Positions 24,177 through 32,465 of a stretch of DNA of 38,096 nucleotides are shown here, piece by piece. Where the stretch lies: assembly GCA_022562515.1 (NCBI GenBank), contig JADFPB010000002.1:1-38096 (forward strand), in the 5' to 3' direction. This stretch comes from Chloroflexota bacterium. GTDB lineage: Bacteria > Chloroflexota > Dehalococcoidia > Lucifugimonadales > Lucifugimonadaceae. Below the pieces are notes generated by a model. The model was not told the origin of the DNA. It saw only the letters and a list, made by a program, of their open reading frames with translations, and did not search any database. Made by a program: the position numbers and the translations under genes. Within the stretch, counting starts at the first letter, position 1. Each line of letters begins with the position of its first letter.

Positions 24177-24656
24177 ATGTCTGATATCACAGGATCCGCT
24201 GAATTGCAGCTGGTCGTCTTTGATTTGAACGAAGAGGCCTACGGCGTAGAAATCGAATCTGTTCGAGAGATCATTCGCCTGCAGGAGATCACCCGCGTGC
24301 CTCGCACGCCGGACTTCGTGGAAGGTGTCATCAACCTTCGGGGCAAGGTGATTCCGGTGGTCGAATTGCGCAAGCGATTCGGTCTGCCCGTCGCGGAGCG
24401 TAATTCCGAAACTCGGATCGTCAACGTTGACATCGGCGGCCAGGAGATCGGAATGGTCGTCGACGCGGTGACAGAGGTCCTGCGCATTACCAGTGACTCA
24501 GTCGAGCCGCCGTCTTCGGTGATCACCACCGCGGATTCGGGATACCTCAAGGGCATCGCGAAACTGCCCGACCGACTGATCATCATGCTGGACCTGGACC
24601 AGGTACTCAGCACGGATGAGCAGAAAGCGCTTTCCGGCACCGATCTCGCCGCGTAG
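24177..24656 (+). CDS. cheW: chemotaxis protein CheW
   Basis: QLVVFDLNEEAYGVEIESVREIIRLQEITRVPRTPDFVEGVINLRGKVIPVVELRKRFGLP. Confidence 0.96.
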   Translation: MSDITGSAELQLVVFDLNEEAYGVEIESVREIIRLQEITRVPRTPDFVEGVINLRGKVIPVVELRKRFGLPVAERNSETRIVNVDIGGQEIGMVVDAVTEVLRITSDSVEPPSSVITTADSGYLKGIAKLPDRLIIMLDLDQVLSTDEQKALSGTDLAA

Positions 24657-24827: not shown

Positions 24828-26924
24828 ATGAACCTGGATCCTGACATAACCCAGGAGGACTTGCAGGTCTTTCTGGACGAGGCGGAAGAGCAACTCCAGT
24901 TGCTTGACACGAACATCGTCGGCATCGAAGGCCGTGATGATAATTCCGACCTGATACAGGAGATATTCAGGGCTGCGCATACTCTGAAGGGCTCTTCAGC
25001 GATGCTCGGCTATCGGGAGATGACCGACCTGGGCCACGCGATGGAGACATTGCTGGACAAGGTCCGCAAGGGTTCCCTGGCGCCGAGCACGAACGTCGTG
25101 GATGCTCTGCTGCACAGCCTCGACAAGCTTCGTCTTCTGAAGGACGCGCTTATCGAACCGCCTGAGGCGCCCATCGACGTGTCCGGCGTGGTGGCGGAAC
25201 TCATCGCGGCCGGCGGCGGGGAGAGCAGCGAGCCGGCGAAAAAGACCACCGTGGAGGGGCTGAGGCTGACCGATGAGGAACAGGCACACGTTGCCGAACT
25301 TCTGAAGGCCGACGTGAAGGCCAAAGCTCTCCTGGTGCGGGCGACCCTGATCGATGAGTGTGAATGGGGCGCGGTCCGCTGGTTCCAGGTACTTGGCGAA
25401 CTCGCCGAAGCGGGTCAGCTCATTGCCTCCAATCCAACTCAGCACCAGATCGAAGAGGAAGAGGCAGGCACGAGCCTTGAAGCTCTGGTCCTGGGCGAGA
25501 TCGACTCAGAGGAACTGGTTCAACGCGTGAGAGCGGTTGCCGACATCGCGACCGCCGAGATAGAGGAATACAAAGACGCGTCTGAAATCAAGGCTTCATC
25601 CGCTGGAGCGGGCGCCGGGACCAAGACGGCGCAGACAATCCGGGTGGATGTCGAGCGTCTTGATCTCATGATGAATGTCATCGGCGAACTGGTCATCGAC
25701 CGCGGCAGGATCACCCAGATCGGCCGGGACCTCGAGGCCAAGTACCGGGGCGAGCCGCTGGTGAAGGAACTGTCTAAGACCTCGGCCCATATCGTCAAGG
25801 TCGTGACCGAACTCCAGGATCGCGTGATGGAGATTCGGATGCTGCCCATCGGCACCGTATTTGGCGGATTCCCGCGGTTGGTCAGGGATCTGGCTCAAAG
25901 CCTGGATAAGAAAGTCGAGTTCGTGGTCACGGGTCAAGATACTGAGATAGACAGGACGGTCATAGAGCGGGTTCGAGACCCCATCGTCCACTTGTTGAGG
26001 AATGCGGTGGATCACGGTCTGGAAGCACCGGAAGAGCGGCGCAAGGCCAGGAAGAGCGAGAAAGGTGTTCTCACCCTGTCCGCGTACCACGAGCAGGGCC
26101 ACATAGTGATCGAGGTCGGTGACGATGGCAGAGGCATAGATCTGGACGCGCTGCGAGCTTCAGCCGTAAAGAATGGGTTCCTGACCCAGGATGCGGCCTC
26201 GAAATTGAGTGACCAGGAGGCACGCGAACTGATTTTCCTGGCCGGCAACTCCACCGCCAAAAAGACCACGGACGTTTCCGGCCGCGGCGTCGGCATGGAC
26301 ATAGTCAGGTCCAATATCGAAGTGATCGGCGGCTTCGTCAGCGTCGAGAGCGAAGTGGGCAGGGGAACCACGCTCAAGCTTCGGTTGCCGCTGACTCTTG
26401 CTACGGTCCAATCATTGCTTGTCCTGTCGGACGGAGACGTGTTCGCGGTCCCACTTGTCTATGTGCTGGAGACGAGGAGAGTGCCGAAGGATGAAGTCCA
26501 CATTGTGAACCACCACGAGGTTTTCAATCTTCGCGGGTCCGTCCTACCGCTTGTTCGGCTGACTGATGCCGTTGGCTGGGCGGATCGGCGAAGCCAGCGG
26601 GCGGACGACGAGTACGTCGTCGTGGTCCGGTCTGGAGAAACTCAGATCGGCCTTGTGGTAGACACGGTCATAGAGCCCCAGGAGATTGTTGTGAAGCCGC
26701 TCGGCGGCTTCATTGGCGACGTACGCGGCGTGGCCGGGGCGAGCATTCTTGGCGACGGGCGGGTGGCTCTCATCCTGGATATCGGGACGATGATCAACTC
26801 GGCCCGCCAGCAAGGCGCTTTCGCCGCCGCCCGCTCTCTGAAAGCGGAGAGTGCAGCTGAAGGCGGTGTTGAATCTGTCGAGACCCGGTCTGATGAGGAG
26901 CGAGTGGAATTGACGGCGGTATAG
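24828..26924 (+). CDS. cheA: chemotaxis histidine kinase CheA
   Basis: P1 HPt FRAAHTLKGSSAMLGY; H-ATPase HLLRNAVDHGLEAPEERRKARK, DDGRGID, GRGVGMDIVRSNIE; CheW-like C-terminus. Confidence 0.96.
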   Translation: MNLDPDITQEDLQVFLDEAEEQLQLLDTNIVGIEGRDDNSDLIQEIFRAAHTLKGSSAMLGYREMTDLGHAMETLLDKVRKGSLAPSTNVVDALLHSLDKLRLLKDALIEPPEAPIDVSGVVAELIAAGGGESSEPAKKTTVEGLRLTDEEQAHVAELLKADVKAKALLVRATLIDECEWGAVRWFQVLGELAEAGQLIASNPTQHQIEEEEAGTSLEALVLGEIDSEELVQRVRAVADIATAEIEEYKDASEIKASSAGAGAGTKTAQTIRVDVERLDLMMNVIGELVIDRGRITQIGRDLEAKYRGEPLVKELSKTSAHIVKVVTELQDRVMEIRMLPIGTVFGGFPRLVRDLAQSLDKKVEFVVTGQDTEIDRTVIERVRDPIVHLLRNAVDHGLEAPEERRKARKSEKGVLTLSAYHEQGHIVIEVGDDGRGIDLDALRASAVKNGFLTQDAASKLSDQEARELIFLAGNSTAKKTTDVSGRGVGMDIVRSNIEVIGGFVSVESEVGRGTTLKLRLPLTLATVQSLLVLSDGDVFAVPLVYVLETRRVPKDEVHIVNHHEVFNLRGSVLPLVRLTDAVGWADRRSQRADDEYVVVVRSGETQIGLVVDTVIEPQEIVVKPLGGFIGDVRGVAGASILGDGRVALILDIGTMINSARQQGAFAAARSLKAESAAEGGVESVETRSDEERVELTAV

Positions 26925-26952: not shown

Positions 26953-27573
26953 ATGTTCAGCGCTAATTCAACGGCCTCATCGGCCACCTCGTCCGAAATC
27001 TGGACGGGCCTGGTCGCGGGAGGCATCACGCACGCGATCTCAGGCCTTGGCGACCTGGTTGGTGAGGAAGTCAGAACGACGTTTCTTTCGCCAAGGACCA
27101 TGCCGGCTTCTAAGGTGAATGAACTTATCGGCGGTCCGGAGGCGGATGTGGTGGCTATCCACCTCGGGGTCAGCGGCGAGGCAACCGGCCACATTCTGTT
27201 GATGTTTAAACCCGTGACCGCCTTCGATCTGGTGAACATGCTGTTGGACCGGGAGCCGGGATCGGATTGTGAGCTGGACGAGCTCGCGATATCGACGATG
27301 GGCGAGATGGGCAACGTGATGGGGTCTTACTTCCTGAGCGCTCTGGGCGACACGACGGGAGTGCGGCTAATGCCGTCTCCACCGACAGTAATGATGGATA
27401 TGGCTGGCGCTGTGATCGACGCAGCCGTCGCCGACATCATGGCCGATACCGACGACATTCTGGTGGTGGAGACGCGTTTTGGGACGGCCAACCAGCAGAT
27501 CAACGGGATTTTCCTCGTCCTTCCCAATCCGAGACTAAAAGAGGTTCTGCTTGACCGATGGGCGAAGCAGTAA
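26953..27573 (+). CDS. cheC: CheC-like CheY-P phosphatase
   Basis: DELAISTMGEMGNVMGSYFLSALGD (S-x3-E-x2-N phosphatase motif); overlaps cheD. Confidence 0.82.
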   Translation: MFSANSTASSATSSEIWTGLVAGGITHAISGLGDLVGEEVRTTFLSPRTMPASKVNELIGGPEADVVAIHLGVSGEATGHILLMFKPVTAFDLVNMLLDREPGSDCELDELAISTMGEMGNVMGSYFLSALGDTTGVRLMPSPPTVMMDMAGAVIDAAVADIMADTDDILVVETRFGTANQQINGIFLVLPNPRLKEVLLDRWAKQ

Positions 27574-28082
27574 TGGTGGCGGTGGATAAAGCAACCGAAA
27601 AAAGTAGTGTTTCAGTGGGTCTTGGAGAGATGAAGGTTTTGAAGAACTCTGACGCCACACTCGCCTGCCTGGGGCTTGGATCCTGTGTGGGTGTTGCCGC
27701 ATGGGACCCCGTGGCGCGGGTCGCCGGGATGGCGCACGTAGTGCTGCCGTCCTCTGAGGGGAGAAGGCCCGACTCCGGCGCCAAATATGCAGATCGAGCT
27801 ATTCCGAAGTTGATTCAGGCCGTGAAAGATCAGGGGGGCCTCAAGTCCCGGCTGGTCATCAAGATCGCGGGGGGTGCGCAGATGGCGCTTTCGACAGCGA
27901 ATGATCCGATATTCAAGATCGGCGAGCAGAACGTCAACGCGGTTTTAGAGGCGATAGGTCGAGAAGGCCTCAAAGTTGAGGTTGAAGAGATTGGCGGTAA
28001 TCGCGGCCGGACGCTGCGACTGAATGCTGCCAATGGTGAGACACAAGTGTCGGTGGCCGGAGAGCCACCGCGAAAGCTGTAG
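27558..28082 (+). CDS. cheD: chemotaxis glutamine deamidase CheD
   Basis: LACLGLGSCVGVAAWDPVARVAGMAHVVLPSSEG with catalytic Cys/His context; alternative start ATG 27573 overlaps the cheC stop (TAATG). Confidence 0.93.
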   Translation: MGEAVMVAVDKATEKSSVSVGLGEMKVLKNSDATLACLGLGSCVGVAAWDPVARVAGMAHVVLPSSEGRRPDSGAKYADRAIPKLIQAVKDQGGLKSRLVIKIAGGAQMALSTANDPIFKIGEQNVNAVLEAIGREGLKVEVEEIGGNRGRTLRLNAANGETQVSVAGEPPRKL

Positions 28083-28095
28083 GGAGGAACGGGAC

Positions 28096-28452
28096 ATGCC
28101 AAGTGTCATGGTGGTTGATGACGCGGCGTTCATGCGCATGAAGGCGACAAAGATGCTCAGCGAAGTGGGCTACACCGTCTCCGAAGCGTCGACGGGCGCA
28201 GAGGCCGTTGAGGCCTACAAAGCTCAGGCACCTGACTGCGTACTTCTGGATATCACCATGCCGGACATGGACGGGCTCACCGCCCTGAAGCAGATCCGGG
28301 AGCATGATCCGAACGCTCGGATCGCGATGGTGACGGCCATGGGCCAGCAGTCGATCGTTATGGAAGCTCTGAAGGCCGGAGCGATGGATTTTGTTGTAAA
28401 GCCATTCACGGCGGACCGCGTCATTGGCGCAGTCAAAAAGATGATCGGGTGA
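28096..28452 (+). CDS. cheY: response regulator CheY (single receiver)
   Basis: MPSVMVVDDAAFMRMK...CVLLDITMPDMDGL...MVTAMGQQS...KPFTADRV; SD GGAGG before ATG 28096. Confidence 0.93.
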   Translation: MPSVMVVDDAAFMRMKATKMLSEVGYTVSEASTGAEAVEAYKAQAPDCVLLDITMPDMDGLTALKQIREHDPNARIAMVTAMGQQSIVMEALKAGAMDFVVKPFTADRVIGAVKKMIG

Positions 28453-28520
28453 TTCGATTGCCGCAAAAAAAACTGCAGCACTCAGGGGATCGTGAAGAAA
28501 AAAGGAGACGAGCCACCGTC

Positions 28521-29582
28521 ATGGTGAAAGTCCTTGTGGTAGATGACTCAGCATTTGCGCGCTCCAGGATCGTCAAAGTTCTTAGTGACTCGCCCGGCCT
28601 CCAAGTAGTGGGGCAGGCCGTTGACGGCGCCGATGCGATACGGCAGACGAAGGAGTTGCGACCTGATGTCGTGACGCTTGATATCGAGATGCCGGTGATG
28701 GACGGCTTGATGGCCCTCGAGCAGATGATGCGCGAGTGCCCCACGCCCGTCGTCATGGTGAGTTCTCTCACCGGGCCGCAAACGGACGCGACAGTTGCGG
28801 CTCTCCAGCTTGGCGCAGTCGATTTCTTCCTCAAGCCGTCTATTGCACTTCCGGCCGGCACTGGTGTGACGCAGAGCGACCTGTCGAAGACGGTCATGAA
28901 CGCCGCGACGGTAAAGGTCCGCCACCTGAACGGGAAAAGCCCGAAAAGCCTTATAAACCTGGAAGTGCGGCCCGTTACCATGCCGCCGCGTGAATCCAGG
29001 AGCAGCAGGCCGGGAAGTATTGACCAGGTGGTCTTGATCGGGTCATCGACAGGCGGCCCCAGGGCGCTCGCGGAAGTGATTCCAAGGCTTCCTCGCGATC
29101 TACCGGCTGCCGTGATGGTGGTACAGCACATGCCTGCGGGATTCACGAAATCCCTGGCCGATCGCCTCAACCGGACATCCGCGTTGCAGGTTTCCGAGGC
29201 CGCGGATGGCGATCGGATTGGCGCCGGCAAGGTGCTGCTGGCTCCGGGCGGTTACCACATGATCGTGGATAGGGCCGGGAAGATCTCACTGGACGAAGGC
29301 CCACCGGTTTGTGGCGTGCGGCCTTCGGTGGACGTTACGGCGCTATCAGCGGTTGAGGCCTTTGGCAAAAACATCAGGGCGATGATTCTCACGGGAATGG
29401 GCTCGGATGGAACGAACGGTGCGTCCGCCATCAAAGCGGCCGGGGGGAAAGTGTCCGTTGAGCACGAGTCGACGTGCGCGGTCTACGGCATGCCGAGAAG
29501 CGTTGTCGAGGCCGGCTGGGCCGACGATATCGTGCCACTGGACGAATGCGCCGACCAGATCGTGAAGATGTGCTCGGATTAG
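28521..29582 (+). CDS. cheB: chemotaxis methylesterase CheB
   Basis: Receiver MVKVLVVDDSAFARS... plus GSSTGGPRALAEVIPRLP, VQHMPAGFTKSLADRL, LLAPGGYHM, LTGMGSDGTNG. ATG at 28521 with GGAG SD. Confidence 0.96.
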   Translation: MVKVLVVDDSAFARSRIVKVLSDSPGLQVVGQAVDGADAIRQTKELRPDVVTLDIEMPVMDGLMALEQMMRECPTPVVMVSSLTGPQTDATVAALQLGAVDFFLKPSIALPAGTGVTQSDLSKTVMNAATVKVRHLNGKSPKSLINLEVRPVTMPPRESRSSRPGSIDQVVLIGSSTGGPRALAEVIPRLPRDLPAAVMVVQHMPAGFTKSLADRLNRTSALQVSEAADGDRIGAGKVLLAPGGYHMIVDRAGKISLDEGPPVCGVRPSVDVTALSAVEAFGKNIRAMILTGMGSDGTNGASAIKAAGGKVSVEHESTCAVYGMPRSVVEAGWADDIVPLDECADQIVKMCSD

Positions 29583-29601: not shown

Positions 29602-30411
29602 ATGATAAGCGAAAGCGATTTCGAAATCCTGAAAGTCAAGATAAACCAGGTTCTTGGCATAGATCTTGGCTACTACAAGCCCCAGCAGATGCAGCGGCGC
29701 CTGTCTGGTTATCTCACGCGCTTGCATCTCGATACCCGCGGGCTTTGCGGCCTCATCGGCAGAGATCACGAAGCGGCTGCGGAATTACGAGAGTTCATCA
29801 CCATCAACGTTTCGGAATTTTTCAGAGACCCGGCGCAGTTCGATATTCTCAAGAAAGTCGCTTTACCAGAGATTCTCGACTCTTCGGGCCAGGTGAAGGT
29901 GTGGAGCGCGGGATGCTCGCATGGCGGCGAGCCCTATTCGGTGGCCATTCTCCTGAACGAACTGGCGCCGGATAAAAATCACCAGGTGTGGGCGACGGAT
30001 ATCGACCGCCAGATCTTGCGGCGCGCCCAGGCTGGTGGACCTTATGCGGAGGCCGATGTTCGCGCAGTGGGCAAGCATCTGCTCCTCAAATACTTCGACA
30101 AGAAGGACACGGAGTTCTGGGCGAAGGATGAGTTGCGGAATATGGTCAAGTTCAAGGAGCTGGATCTGTTGTCCGATCGATTCTCAGTGGGGCTGGACCT
30201 GATCATCTGCCGGAATGTTGTCATCTATTTTTCCGATGAGGCCAAGCGCATGCTGAACGAGCGTTTTTACAGCTCCCTCAAAATGGGAGGTTTCTTTTTC
30301 GTCGGGGGTACTGAGGCGTTGCTTGGCGCGGAGGAAATAGGGTTCAGACGGGTGCAGTCATCGCTTTACCAGAAGGTAACACCGGCAAGTGCAATGCGTG
30401 AGGCAGCGTAG
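29602..30411 (+). CDS. cheR: chemotaxis methyltransferase CheR
   Basis: FITINVSEFFRDPAQF; VKVWSAGCSHGGEPYSVAILL; DLIICRNVVIYFSDEAKRMLNERFYSSLKMGGFFFVGGTEAL. Confidence 0.96.
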   Translation: MISESDFEILKVKINQVLGIDLGYYKPQQMQRRLSGYLTRLHLDTRGLCGLIGRDHEAAAELREFITINVSEFFRDPAQFDILKKVALPEILDSSGQVKVWSAGCSHGGEPYSVAILLNELAPDKNHQVWATDIDRQILRRAQAGGPYAEADVRAVGKHLLLKYFDKKDTEFWAKDELRNMVKFKELDLLSDRFSVGLDLIICRNVVIYFSDEAKRMLNERFYSSLKMGGFFFVGGTEALLGAEEIGFRRVQSSLYQKVTPASAMREAA

Positions 30412-30432: not shown

Positions 30433-31512
30433 ATGAAGCGAATCGGTGCGGCATACGCCCGGGAAGGGATGGTCATCGGGTGGCCTATCTACGACACGGA
30501 TGGGCGGCTGATACTGGACACAGGCGACGAAGTGGACGCCGAAAGCCTGACGCGGATTTCTGAGAACGGAATCGCGGAACTGATCGTCGAGGACTGGCGC
30601 GTGATCGACGTGCCTGTAGAGCCGCTTGTCCCGCCGGCTGAGGAGGCGATGCTGATTCACGGTGTTCGGCAGACCATGGCAAGGCTCCGCGGGGGGAATT
30701 CCCTGTACCGCGAAAACCTGGAGCAGATGGTGCAACACCTCCACCGGATGATCAGGACGATGAGGGGGAGCCTGCTCGGGGAACCCAGCTCGGCCGGGTG
30801 CCTGAACGTGGAAACGTATGACTTCGTTCATCCGGCGAGGGTAGCCGGGCTGTCACTGATTCTTGGCATGGAATACGGCATCGAGGATTCCGAACTGGTT
30901 GTGATGGGCCTGGCGGCGCTGATGATGAACATCGGGTACGTCAAACTGCCGGAAGATGCCCTCATAGTGCCGGGGCCACTCAGTCCGGAAACCTGGCAAG
31001 ACCTCGCTCAACACCCAGAAGCAGGGGCGGAAATCATCGCCGCCATTGATGGAGTGGATGAGAAGGTCGTTCAGGCGATAGCTCAATCACATGAGCGGTT
31101 TGACGGGACCGGGTATCCGAACGGACTCAAAGGTGAGGACATATCGCTGTTCGCGCGGATCCTGGGAATAGTGGACACCTTTTACGCGCTCGTCTCGTTG
31201 CGGCCGCACCGAAAGCCGTTTCTGCCGCACGAGGCGATCGAGTTCGTGATGGCCTATTCGATGGAACTCTTCGATCCTGATCTCGTGGAGCTATTTTCCA
31301 GGAAGGTTCCGCTCTACTCCACTGGAGTCAGTGTGAAGCTGAGTAGCAACGAGACGGGCGTGGTCGCGGATGCGAATCTCGGCCACGTTGGCAGGCCGAT
31401 TGTGCGGATCCTGGTGGACAGATTCGGGGCCGAGGTCAAAAAGCCGTATGAGCTGGATCTGACAGCGCCCGACCAGCAAAGGGAACTGGTAGTTCAGGTG
31501 CTTGATTTCTAA
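30433..31512 (+). CDS. HD-GYP-like domain protein with degenerate HD motif
   Basis: FVHPARVAGLSLILG...MGLAALMMNIGYVKLPEDAL...HPEAGAEIIAAI...SHERFDGTGYPNGLKGEDISLFARILGIVDTFYAL: HD-GYP scaffold but HDIGK is replaced by MNIGY. Confidence 0.85.
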   Translation: MKRIGAAYAREGMVIGWPIYDTDGRLILDTGDEVDAESLTRISENGIAELIVEDWRVIDVPVEPLVPPAEEAMLIHGVRQTMARLRGGNSLYRENLEQMVQHLHRMIRTMRGSLLGEPSSAGCLNVETYDFVHPARVAGLSLILGMEYGIEDSELVVMGLAALMMNIGYVKLPEDALIVPGPLSPETWQDLAQHPEAGAEIIAAIDGVDEKVVQAIAQSHERFDGTGYPNGLKGEDISLFARILGIVDTFYALVSLRPHRKPFLPHEAIEFVMAYSMELFDPDLVELFSRKVPLYSTGVSVKLSSNETGVVADANLGHVGRPIVRILVDRFGAEVKKPYELDLTAPDQQRELVVQVLDF

Positions 31513-32465
31513 TGGCGGATGAAGGCAACAGCGTCCTGTCACAGAACGCCATCGATTCCCTTTTCGGGGATATTCCCGCGGGTGATCCGGTTGTTGACCC
31601 CGGAACGAGCGCGGACGGGGTGACGCGCACCCCGACCGTTGGCGACATGCCGGAGGGGCCGCCTGCCGCCGCGGCAGCCCCTGCGCCTGCTCCCGGGGCC
31701 ACTCCGGCGCCGGCCCCGGCTCAGCAGATGCCGAGTGCCAGGCCATGGCTGCAGGAAGAGCCGTCCGCCGCTGCGCCACCGGCCGAAGCGACTCCGGCCG
31801 CGCCCGCGCCTGGTCTGGCGATGACCGCTGCTCCGCCCGCGGCCCAACCGCCGCCTCAGGCAGTCCCCGTACCTGCCGTCCCGGCGCTCGCCGTCCCACC
31901 CGCCGCTGCAGCGCCGCCTCCCGCACCCGCGGTTCCCCTGGCAGTCGCGCCCAATGTGGCGGCTGTCGCGCCCGTTGCGGCGGGGATATCCGGAGATGAC
32001 GTTGAGGCAATGATCGCTCCATTGCAGGCCACCCTTGCCGCTTATGAGCAGCGGTTCGCCGGCATCGATTCAGCTCTGGCCAGGCTGACCGAAATCGAGA
32101 GCAAGCTCTCTGAACTGGAGAAGTCGTCCGGCCGAGGAGTGGAGCGTCGCGACCTGCAACTGCTCCAGGGCAAAATCATGAAACAGATGCGAAGCGTGAT
32201 AGACAACCTGCAAGCCACGCCCGCGTATGGACTACGGAAGACGTTTGCCTGTTCCGGCTGCGGCGAAGTCGGCAATGTGGCGGTTCGCGTGAAGTGCACG
32301 TCGTGTCAGCGTGAAACGCATGTTGGCTGGTTCCCCGGGGAGGCGGCAGCCCTGCACAAGCCTCAGGCCGGCCGAGGCGGCCGGTCGAACGCTCGGGTGA
32401 AGCCAGCGCCTAACGGCCGTAGGTCGCGGAGATCCCGGCCCGGGCAAGGGCGTGCTCCTCGATAA
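31512..32465 (+). CDS. uncharacterised Pro/Ala-rich protein with FliM-N-like peptide and C-terminal zinc ribbon
   Basis: N-terminus MADEGNSVLSQNAIDSLFGDI; long Ala/Pro linker; predicted coiled coil (ARLTEIESKLSELEKS); CSGCGEVGNVAVRVKCTSCQRETHVGWFP; basic tail. Start overlaps the preceding stop (TAATG). Confidence 0.8.
   Translation: MADEGNSVLSQNAIDSLFGDIPAGDPVVDPGTSADGVTRTPTVGDMPEGPPAAAAAPAPAPGATPAPAPAQQMPSARPWLQEEPSAAAPPAEATPAAPAPGLAMTAAPPAAQPPPQAVPVPAVPALAVPPAAAAPPPAPAVPLAVAPNVAAVAPVAAGISGDDVEAMIAPLQATLAAYEQRFAGIDSALARLTEIESKLSELEKSSGRGVERRDLQLLQGKIMKQMRSVIDNLQATPAYGLRKTFACSGCGEVGNVAVRVKCTSCQRETHVGWFPGEAAALHKPQAGRGGRSNARVKPAPNGRRSRRSRPGQGRAPR

Follow-up and report, generated by a model that had tools for sequence, protein, structure and literature searches.

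Several described systems resemble parts of the locus reported here. In the active HD-GYP phosphodiesterase PmGH (PDB 4MCW, 4MDZ), whose residue numbering we use for site comparison, each of the substitutions H221A, D222A, H276A and K225A abolishes or nearly abolishes activity, and residues Y285, R314 and K317 touch c-di-GMP (PMC4159591). DvhD of Desulfovibrio vulgaris (PDB 9RBZ, 9RC0) carries SQ in place of HD and MN in place of HH; it binds c-di-GMP without metal, does not hydrolyze it and is inactive with any ion tested (PMC13090378). For motility, CheY-P binds FliM and FliY of the flagellar switch at an EIDALL-type motif, and in archaea CheY is joined to the archaellum by the adaptor CheF (PMC9126983). 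Functional archaella were recently described in Chloroflexota by Sivabalasarma et al. (2025), who noted that CheF is absent and raised the possibility that a different component evolved to connect CheY with the motor (PMC12488501). Our literature search found no proposal for the CheY-archaellum link in this phylum.

The window analyzed here is a stretch of 38,096 nucleotides, contig C6 of a 2.66 Mb Chloroflexota MAG (G000) that is 82.9% complete. An earlier note on this DNA had described an HD-GYP scaffold within a chemotaxis operon. Both parts of this description hold, as the protein matches Pfam HD_5 with 107.5 bits (cut-off 27.2) and its gene sits between cheR and a gene that we refer to as the adaptor gene. 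The operon is co-directional, its che genes are confirmed by Pfam, and it reads cheW-A-C-D-Y-B-R-[HD-GYP]-[adaptor]:

24177-24656, + strand: cheW (Pfam CheW)
24828-26924, + strand: cheA (Pfam Hpt, P2, H-kinase_dim, HATPase_c, CheW)
26953-27573, + strand: cheC/cheX-type CheY phosphatase (Pfam CheX, 28.9 bits)
27558-28082, + strand: cheD (Pfam CheD)
28096-28452, + strand: cheY (closest solved CheYs: the archaeal CheY 6er7 and those of Thermotoga maritima, 1tmy and 4iga)
28449-29582, + strand: cheB (Pfam CheB_methylest, Response_reg)
29602-30411, + strand: cheR (Pfam CheR)
30433-31512, + strand: HD-GYP protein, catalytically degenerate, of the clade that we call NxGY (profile, alignment, model and tree)
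31512-32465, + strand: adaptor, 317 aa, no Pfam family, overlapping the HD-GYP stop codon by one base (TAATG)

The HD-GYP ORF encodes 359 residues from an ATG start with GGAGG upstream, and comprises an N-terminal domain (about 1-60), the core (about 67-294) and a C-terminal beta domain (297-359). Its AlphaFold model (pLDDT 92.6) matches solved HD-GYP structures with Z scores of 21-25, the closest being Bd1817, the DvhD domain with c-di-GMP bound and PmGH (Z 25, 23 and 21, respectively). The same fold search also returned E. coli RNA polymerase beta, chain residues 227-338, with a Z score of 8 and 1.2 A across 53 residues. The motifs of interest are:

30925-30939, + strand: MNIGY (residues 165-169), replacing the metal-binding H-D-x-G-K
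31087-31095, + strand: S-H-E (residues 219-221) in place of H-H-E
31111-31119, + strand: intact G-Y-P (residues 227-229)

All the substitutions reported earlier (MN for HD, Tyr for Lys, Ser for the first His of HHE, with GYP intact) are present as described. The window protein has H133 (in VHPARV), M165-N166-I-G168-Y169, H194 (in HPEAG), S219-H220-E221, Y228 (in GYP) and D248, and compared with the octet and Lys of the enzymes it also has Tyr at the E185 position. It shares with PmGH and other active HD-GYP phosphodiesterases the fold (Z 21.4 with PmGH), the GYP loop and the HD_5 profile, but differs from them in the catalytic octet, four of the eight metal ligands being replaced together with Lys225.

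To assess how general this loss is we surveyed orthologues in 294 genomes of one Chloroflexota class, 15 of which encode NxGY-group proteins, some in duplicate. HD is missing from all intact orthologues, and all but one read [M/Q/E/S]-N-x-G-Y, the exception being MDIGT in G190. The D position is Asn and the K position Tyr in 19 each of the 20 clade members counted, whereas D is retained by every one, and K by 22, of the 23 HD-GYP domains from outside the clade that were compared. In a core tree, a branch with 91/98 support separates all intact N-x-G-[YF] proteins from the HD-x-G-K enzymes. An 83%-identical orthologue from an independent MAG (L053) has MNVGY and SHE in the same operon, and comparison with it gives a dN/dS of 0.16, a sign of purifying selection on the gene. 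The orthologues, the tree and this ratio together indicate that the catalytic loss is an old trait of the clade, maintained by selection, and no accident. Since no intact orthologue retains HD, the isolated mutation or sequencing error that the earlier note had kept in view is ruled out. The change of HHE to SHE, on the other hand, is confined to the window and L053 and is not a family trait, as nearly all other orthologues keep HHE within QHHER (one has HEE).

Related genes were found in several other arrangements. A decaying N-x-G-Y copy (L051), interrupted by two stop codons, is present in G013, whose genome is small and belongs to this class; it falls just outside the clade branch. Stand-alone N-x-G-[YF] HD-GYP paralogues lie outside che and arl clusters in archaellated genomes without CheB (L052 in G148; L101 and L117 in G051). 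In four genomes the N-x-G-Y gene is present in tandem or repeated copies (L038, L041, L043, L037), with CheY between the copies in one of them.

Across the clade, the residues at PmGH positions D183, H189 (variable), H221, D222, K225 and D308 have diverged, and H250 and most of H276/H277 are kept. In the window protein all four positions that proved essential in the PmGH mutants (H221, D222, H276 and K225) are changed, so that the loss of c-di-GMP hydrolysis proposed earlier is well supported; judged from its residues, we predict with high confidence that the protein lacks phosphodiesterase activity. The nucleotide contacts have fared differently. The Y285 position is conserved in 19 of 20 clade members, R314 is Arg or Lys in all 20 and K317 is Arg or Lys in 18, the other two having His, and the window protein keeps the corresponding pocket residues, namely the GYP tyrosine Y228, R257 and R260. 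This conservation of the c-di-GMP contacts, set against the loss of the metal residues, makes a role as a sensor plausible, and DvhD, a non-catalytic receptor that likewise lost its catalytic site and kept its nucleotide contacts, provides a precedent. With moderate confidence we therefore consider the HD-GYP protein a putative cyclic-dinucleotide receptor. DvhD and the window protein share the HD-GYP fold, the replacement of HD and HH residues and the retention of the GYP Tyr and Arg contacts. However, DvhD sits in the membrane as a PAS/dCache receptor that serves a biofilm protease, while the window protein has no such domains and belongs to a chemotaxis operon, and the NxGY clade is distinguished by N-x-G-Y with HHE mostly retained.

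Cyclic di-GMP is likely to be made in these bacteria, as GGDEF proteins are encoded by 15 of the 16 clade genomes searched; none was detected in the remaining one, G090, which is 82% complete. This last genome would suit a protein that binds no nucleotide and acts purely as a switch scaffold, its fold being kept for contacts with the adaptor or the motor. Such a role would also agree with the loss of the metal site, with a first His that varies (H, L, Q, M) and with an HD-GYP gene that nearly always adjoins the adaptor gene. A scaffold alone, however, needs neither the guanine and phosphate contacts (Y228, R257, R260) nor the GYP loop, which are among the best-conserved features of the family, and the distribution of GGDEF proteins also speaks against it. 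We consider this explanation rather unlikely and favor the nucleotide receptor. The suggestion of the earlier note that the protein may be a sensor or scaffold tying c-di-GMP to chemotaxis pointed in the right direction, given the retained contacts and DvhD, but it was an inference that missed both the archaellum and the adaptor partner.

The more important result is this adaptor, encoded one gene downstream, which together with the HD-GYP protein forms a candidate chemotaxis-archaellum link in bacteria. It consists of a FliM-type N-terminal peptide, a disordered Pro/Ala linker, a coiled coil (residues 161-235) and a C-terminal zinc ribbon. Its AlphaFold model is weak (pLDDT 57.6), and the N-terminal helix, the coiled coil and the ribbon alone are usable. 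Two elements stand out:

31536-31565, + strand: L-S-Q-N-A-I-D-S-L-F (adaptor residues 9-18), matching LSQAEIDALL of E. coli FliM
32250-32330, + strand: zinc ribbon CxxC...CxxC...GWFP (Cys 247, 250, 262 and 265), the four Cys invariant in 14/14

The adaptor begins with MADEGNSVLSQNAIDSLFGD and E. coli FliM with MGDSILSQAEIDALLNGD (compared segment LSQAEIDALLNG); in G118, a flagellated relative, a FliM-like protein has MADNAVLSQREIDALLNAE. A FliM-type peptide is present in all 18 adaptor homologues and is in some nearly identical to that of FliM (for example MSDNAVLSQADIDALLNGN in G090). When 2340 ORFs of at least 100 aa were screened for the peptide pattern near the N-terminus, it matched the adaptors and one Pfam-confirmed FliM only. 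The adaptor matches include duplicate entries and, in G190, a second short ORF. The latter (L044:11251-11598; MTSDSILSQDAIDALLAG) lies between the HD-GYP gene and the adaptor gene.

Beyond this EIDALL-type peptide the likeness to FliM and FliY ends. The adaptor matches no Pfam family and contains neither the FliM middle nor the FliMN_C domain, both of which were detected in a control FliM (G065), and FliG is missing from the genome. As the remainder of the protein is made of the linker, the coiled coil and the zinc ribbon, the adaptor is not FliM; by its sequence it is an unrelated protein that carries the CheY-binding tag of FliM. In most adaptors the ribbon ends in WGWWP or similar. Ribbons of this type (FxCxCG..G.VA..IxCTxC..E.WWGWWP) recur in otherwise unrelated proteins, both membrane-anchored coiled-coil proteins and HTH or ParB-like proteins near integrase-like genes (L134, L138, L042:12333-13781, L135, L136, L137 and L140), and represent an unnamed zinc-ribbon family. 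Owing to this recurrence in membrane proteins and near mobile elements, we rejected the ribbon as an archaellum-specific feature. Within the class, an adaptor profile recovered the same genomes as NxGY, plus weaker or partial matches mostly to the ribbon alone. Phylum-wide, strong matches were restricted to this class, so that Litorilinea and other Anaerolineae with archaella may rely on a different solution.

The host genome encodes an archaellum. We found 12 archaellin matches distributed over contigs C15, C70, C76, C87, C100 and C107, and on C76 a cluster encoding archaellins, ArlF/G-like proteins, ArlH (KaiC), ArlI (T2SSE), ArlJ (T2SSF) and a coiled-coil protein that has no Pfam match and that we assign as ArlCDE-like from its position and the resemblance of its N-terminus. 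In G190, which belongs to the same family as the window and is assembled in a single contig of 3.09 Mb, 12 archaellin matches were also found, six being arranged in tandem; for 'Ca. Lucifugimonas marina', a cultured isolate of SAR202, a genome of 3.08 Mb with 12 flaB genes has been reported (PMC10444878). The arl cluster directly adjoins the che-NxGY-adaptor cluster in G113, G012 and G145. One archaellum cluster of G113 contains two adjacent ArlI-like ATPase genes whose products are 56% identical (L039:3076-6567).

A hidden flagellum or flagellar switch was rejected as the target of the operon, FliG being found neither in the host nor in any other NxGY genome. We likewise rejected a CheF under another name, as no match to PF04283 was obtained at E<=0.001 in 18 genomes, host included, in a search that detected the positive controls. 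The job proposed for the adaptor, that of joining CheY-P to an archaellum motor, is the one that CheF has, but the build differs: CheF combines PH-like domains with a CheY site at its C-terminus, and the adaptor a FliM-type N-terminal peptide with a zinc ribbon.

We then analyzed the co-occurrence of these genes across the 294 genomes. All 11 genomes that have both a stand-alone CheB and archaellin carry the HD-GYP/adaptor pair. Archaellin was found in 11 of 15 NxGY genomes versus 43 of 279 others (Fisher P=2.4e-6), and the association of NxGY with archaellin persists within the 52 CheB-positive genomes, among which we scored G212 because its contig stops shortly after the pair (P=1.5e-6), although these values overstate independence because the genomes are related. 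FliG occurs in 0/15 NxGY genomes and, conversely, NxGY in none of the 21 FliG-positive, flagellated genomes. The pair is missing from most archaellated relatives, but these are without a stand-alone CheB as well. Only two genomes positive for CheB and archaellin are without NxGY (G068 and G126), and in both CheB is found solely as part of larger hybrid proteins.

The co-occurrence has a clear exception in family f53, four genomes of which (G181, G213, G170 and G149) combine the che operon with NxGY and a FliM-like peptide, and no archaellum or flagellum was found in them. The adaptor is consequently not restricted to archaellated genomes. These bacteria may drive pili or descend from archaellated ancestors. 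In three f53 loci (L047, L048 and L049) the FliM-type peptide is borne by proteins of 165-170 aa without a zinc ribbon. Archaella and type IV pili have a common motor ancestry. The machine that the pair couples to chemotaxis could hence be a pilus-type one, of the type IV or Tad kind, and the co-occurrence of the pair with archaella would reflect shared motile lifestyles; f53 genomes do encode ATPases that belong, more distantly, to the type IV pilus/secretion superfamily. We find this improbable in view of the 11/11 co-occurrence and the three genomes with arl genes directly beside the pair; moreover, the absence of the zinc ribbon from the G170 and G149 adaptors suggests that these were reused once the archaellum had been lost.

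The position of the HD-GYP gene, inside the che operon and directly after cheR, would also be compatible with a c-di-GMP sensor that acts on the receptor array, through methylation, CheA or CheD, and does not itself act at the motor. Against this, the gene is conserved next to the adaptor gene and overlaps it by one base, and chemotaxis alone does not need NxGY, because the 21 flagellated relatives have CheB and no NxGY member. We judge such a role to be about as improbable as the coupling to pili, and retain the archaellum as the likelier target of the pair.

A residual or altered hydrolase, using the leftover His ligands and the Asn, could be imagined from the continued presence of H194, H220 and D248 and of both HH histidines in most family members, but this appears very improbable considering the PmGH substitutions and the inactivity of DvhD, with comparable losses, in the presence of every ion tried. 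That the ORF is a sequencing error or a pseudogene has a negligible likelihood, even in a MAG of this completeness with 5% contamination, given its open frame, its dN/dS, the same residues in an independent MAG and N-x-G-Y across the clade.

On balance we lean towards a model in which CheY-P is coupled to the archaellum through the adaptor, with the dead HD-GYP protein as the adaptor's nucleotide-sensing partner. The model draws on the catalytic-site loss as a clade trait, the conservation of the pocket, the peptide, the gene order, the archaellum genes, the absence of CheF and FliG and the co-occurrence; every step that follows CheA and CheY is what we infer from them, and this applies to each of the binding events, to the influence on rotation and to the nature of the ligand. 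CheA, as encoded in the che operon, would phosphorylate CheY, and CheY-P would dock on the LSQxxIDxLL peptide of the adaptor. The coiled coil and the zinc ribbon, with the HD-GYP protein, would relay the signal to the archaellum, probably to its ArlCDE-like cytoplasmic ring, and thereby change its rotation, while c-di-GMP or a related nucleotide in the HD-GYP pocket would tune the switch. The pair would in this way do the job of archaeal CheF. The fuller version of this model, in which a FliM-derived CheY-P peptide on a new zinc-ribbon adaptor and a dead HD-GYP receptor together form a c-di-GMP-controlled bacterial replacement of CheF for an acquired archaellum, is put forward more tentatively, as a possibility that we hold somewhat short of probable.

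The locus therefore offers, in the HD-GYP/adaptor pair, named and testable candidates for the link between chemotaxis and the archaellum, and it predicts their biochemistry: FliM-like binding of CheY-P for the adaptor, and cyclic-dinucleotide binding without hydrolysis for the HD-GYP protein. If the model is true, a motor that moved between domains of life would have been rewired to the sensory circuit of its recipient through a borrowed peptide, in marine Chloroflexota that appear to swim by means of an archaellum.
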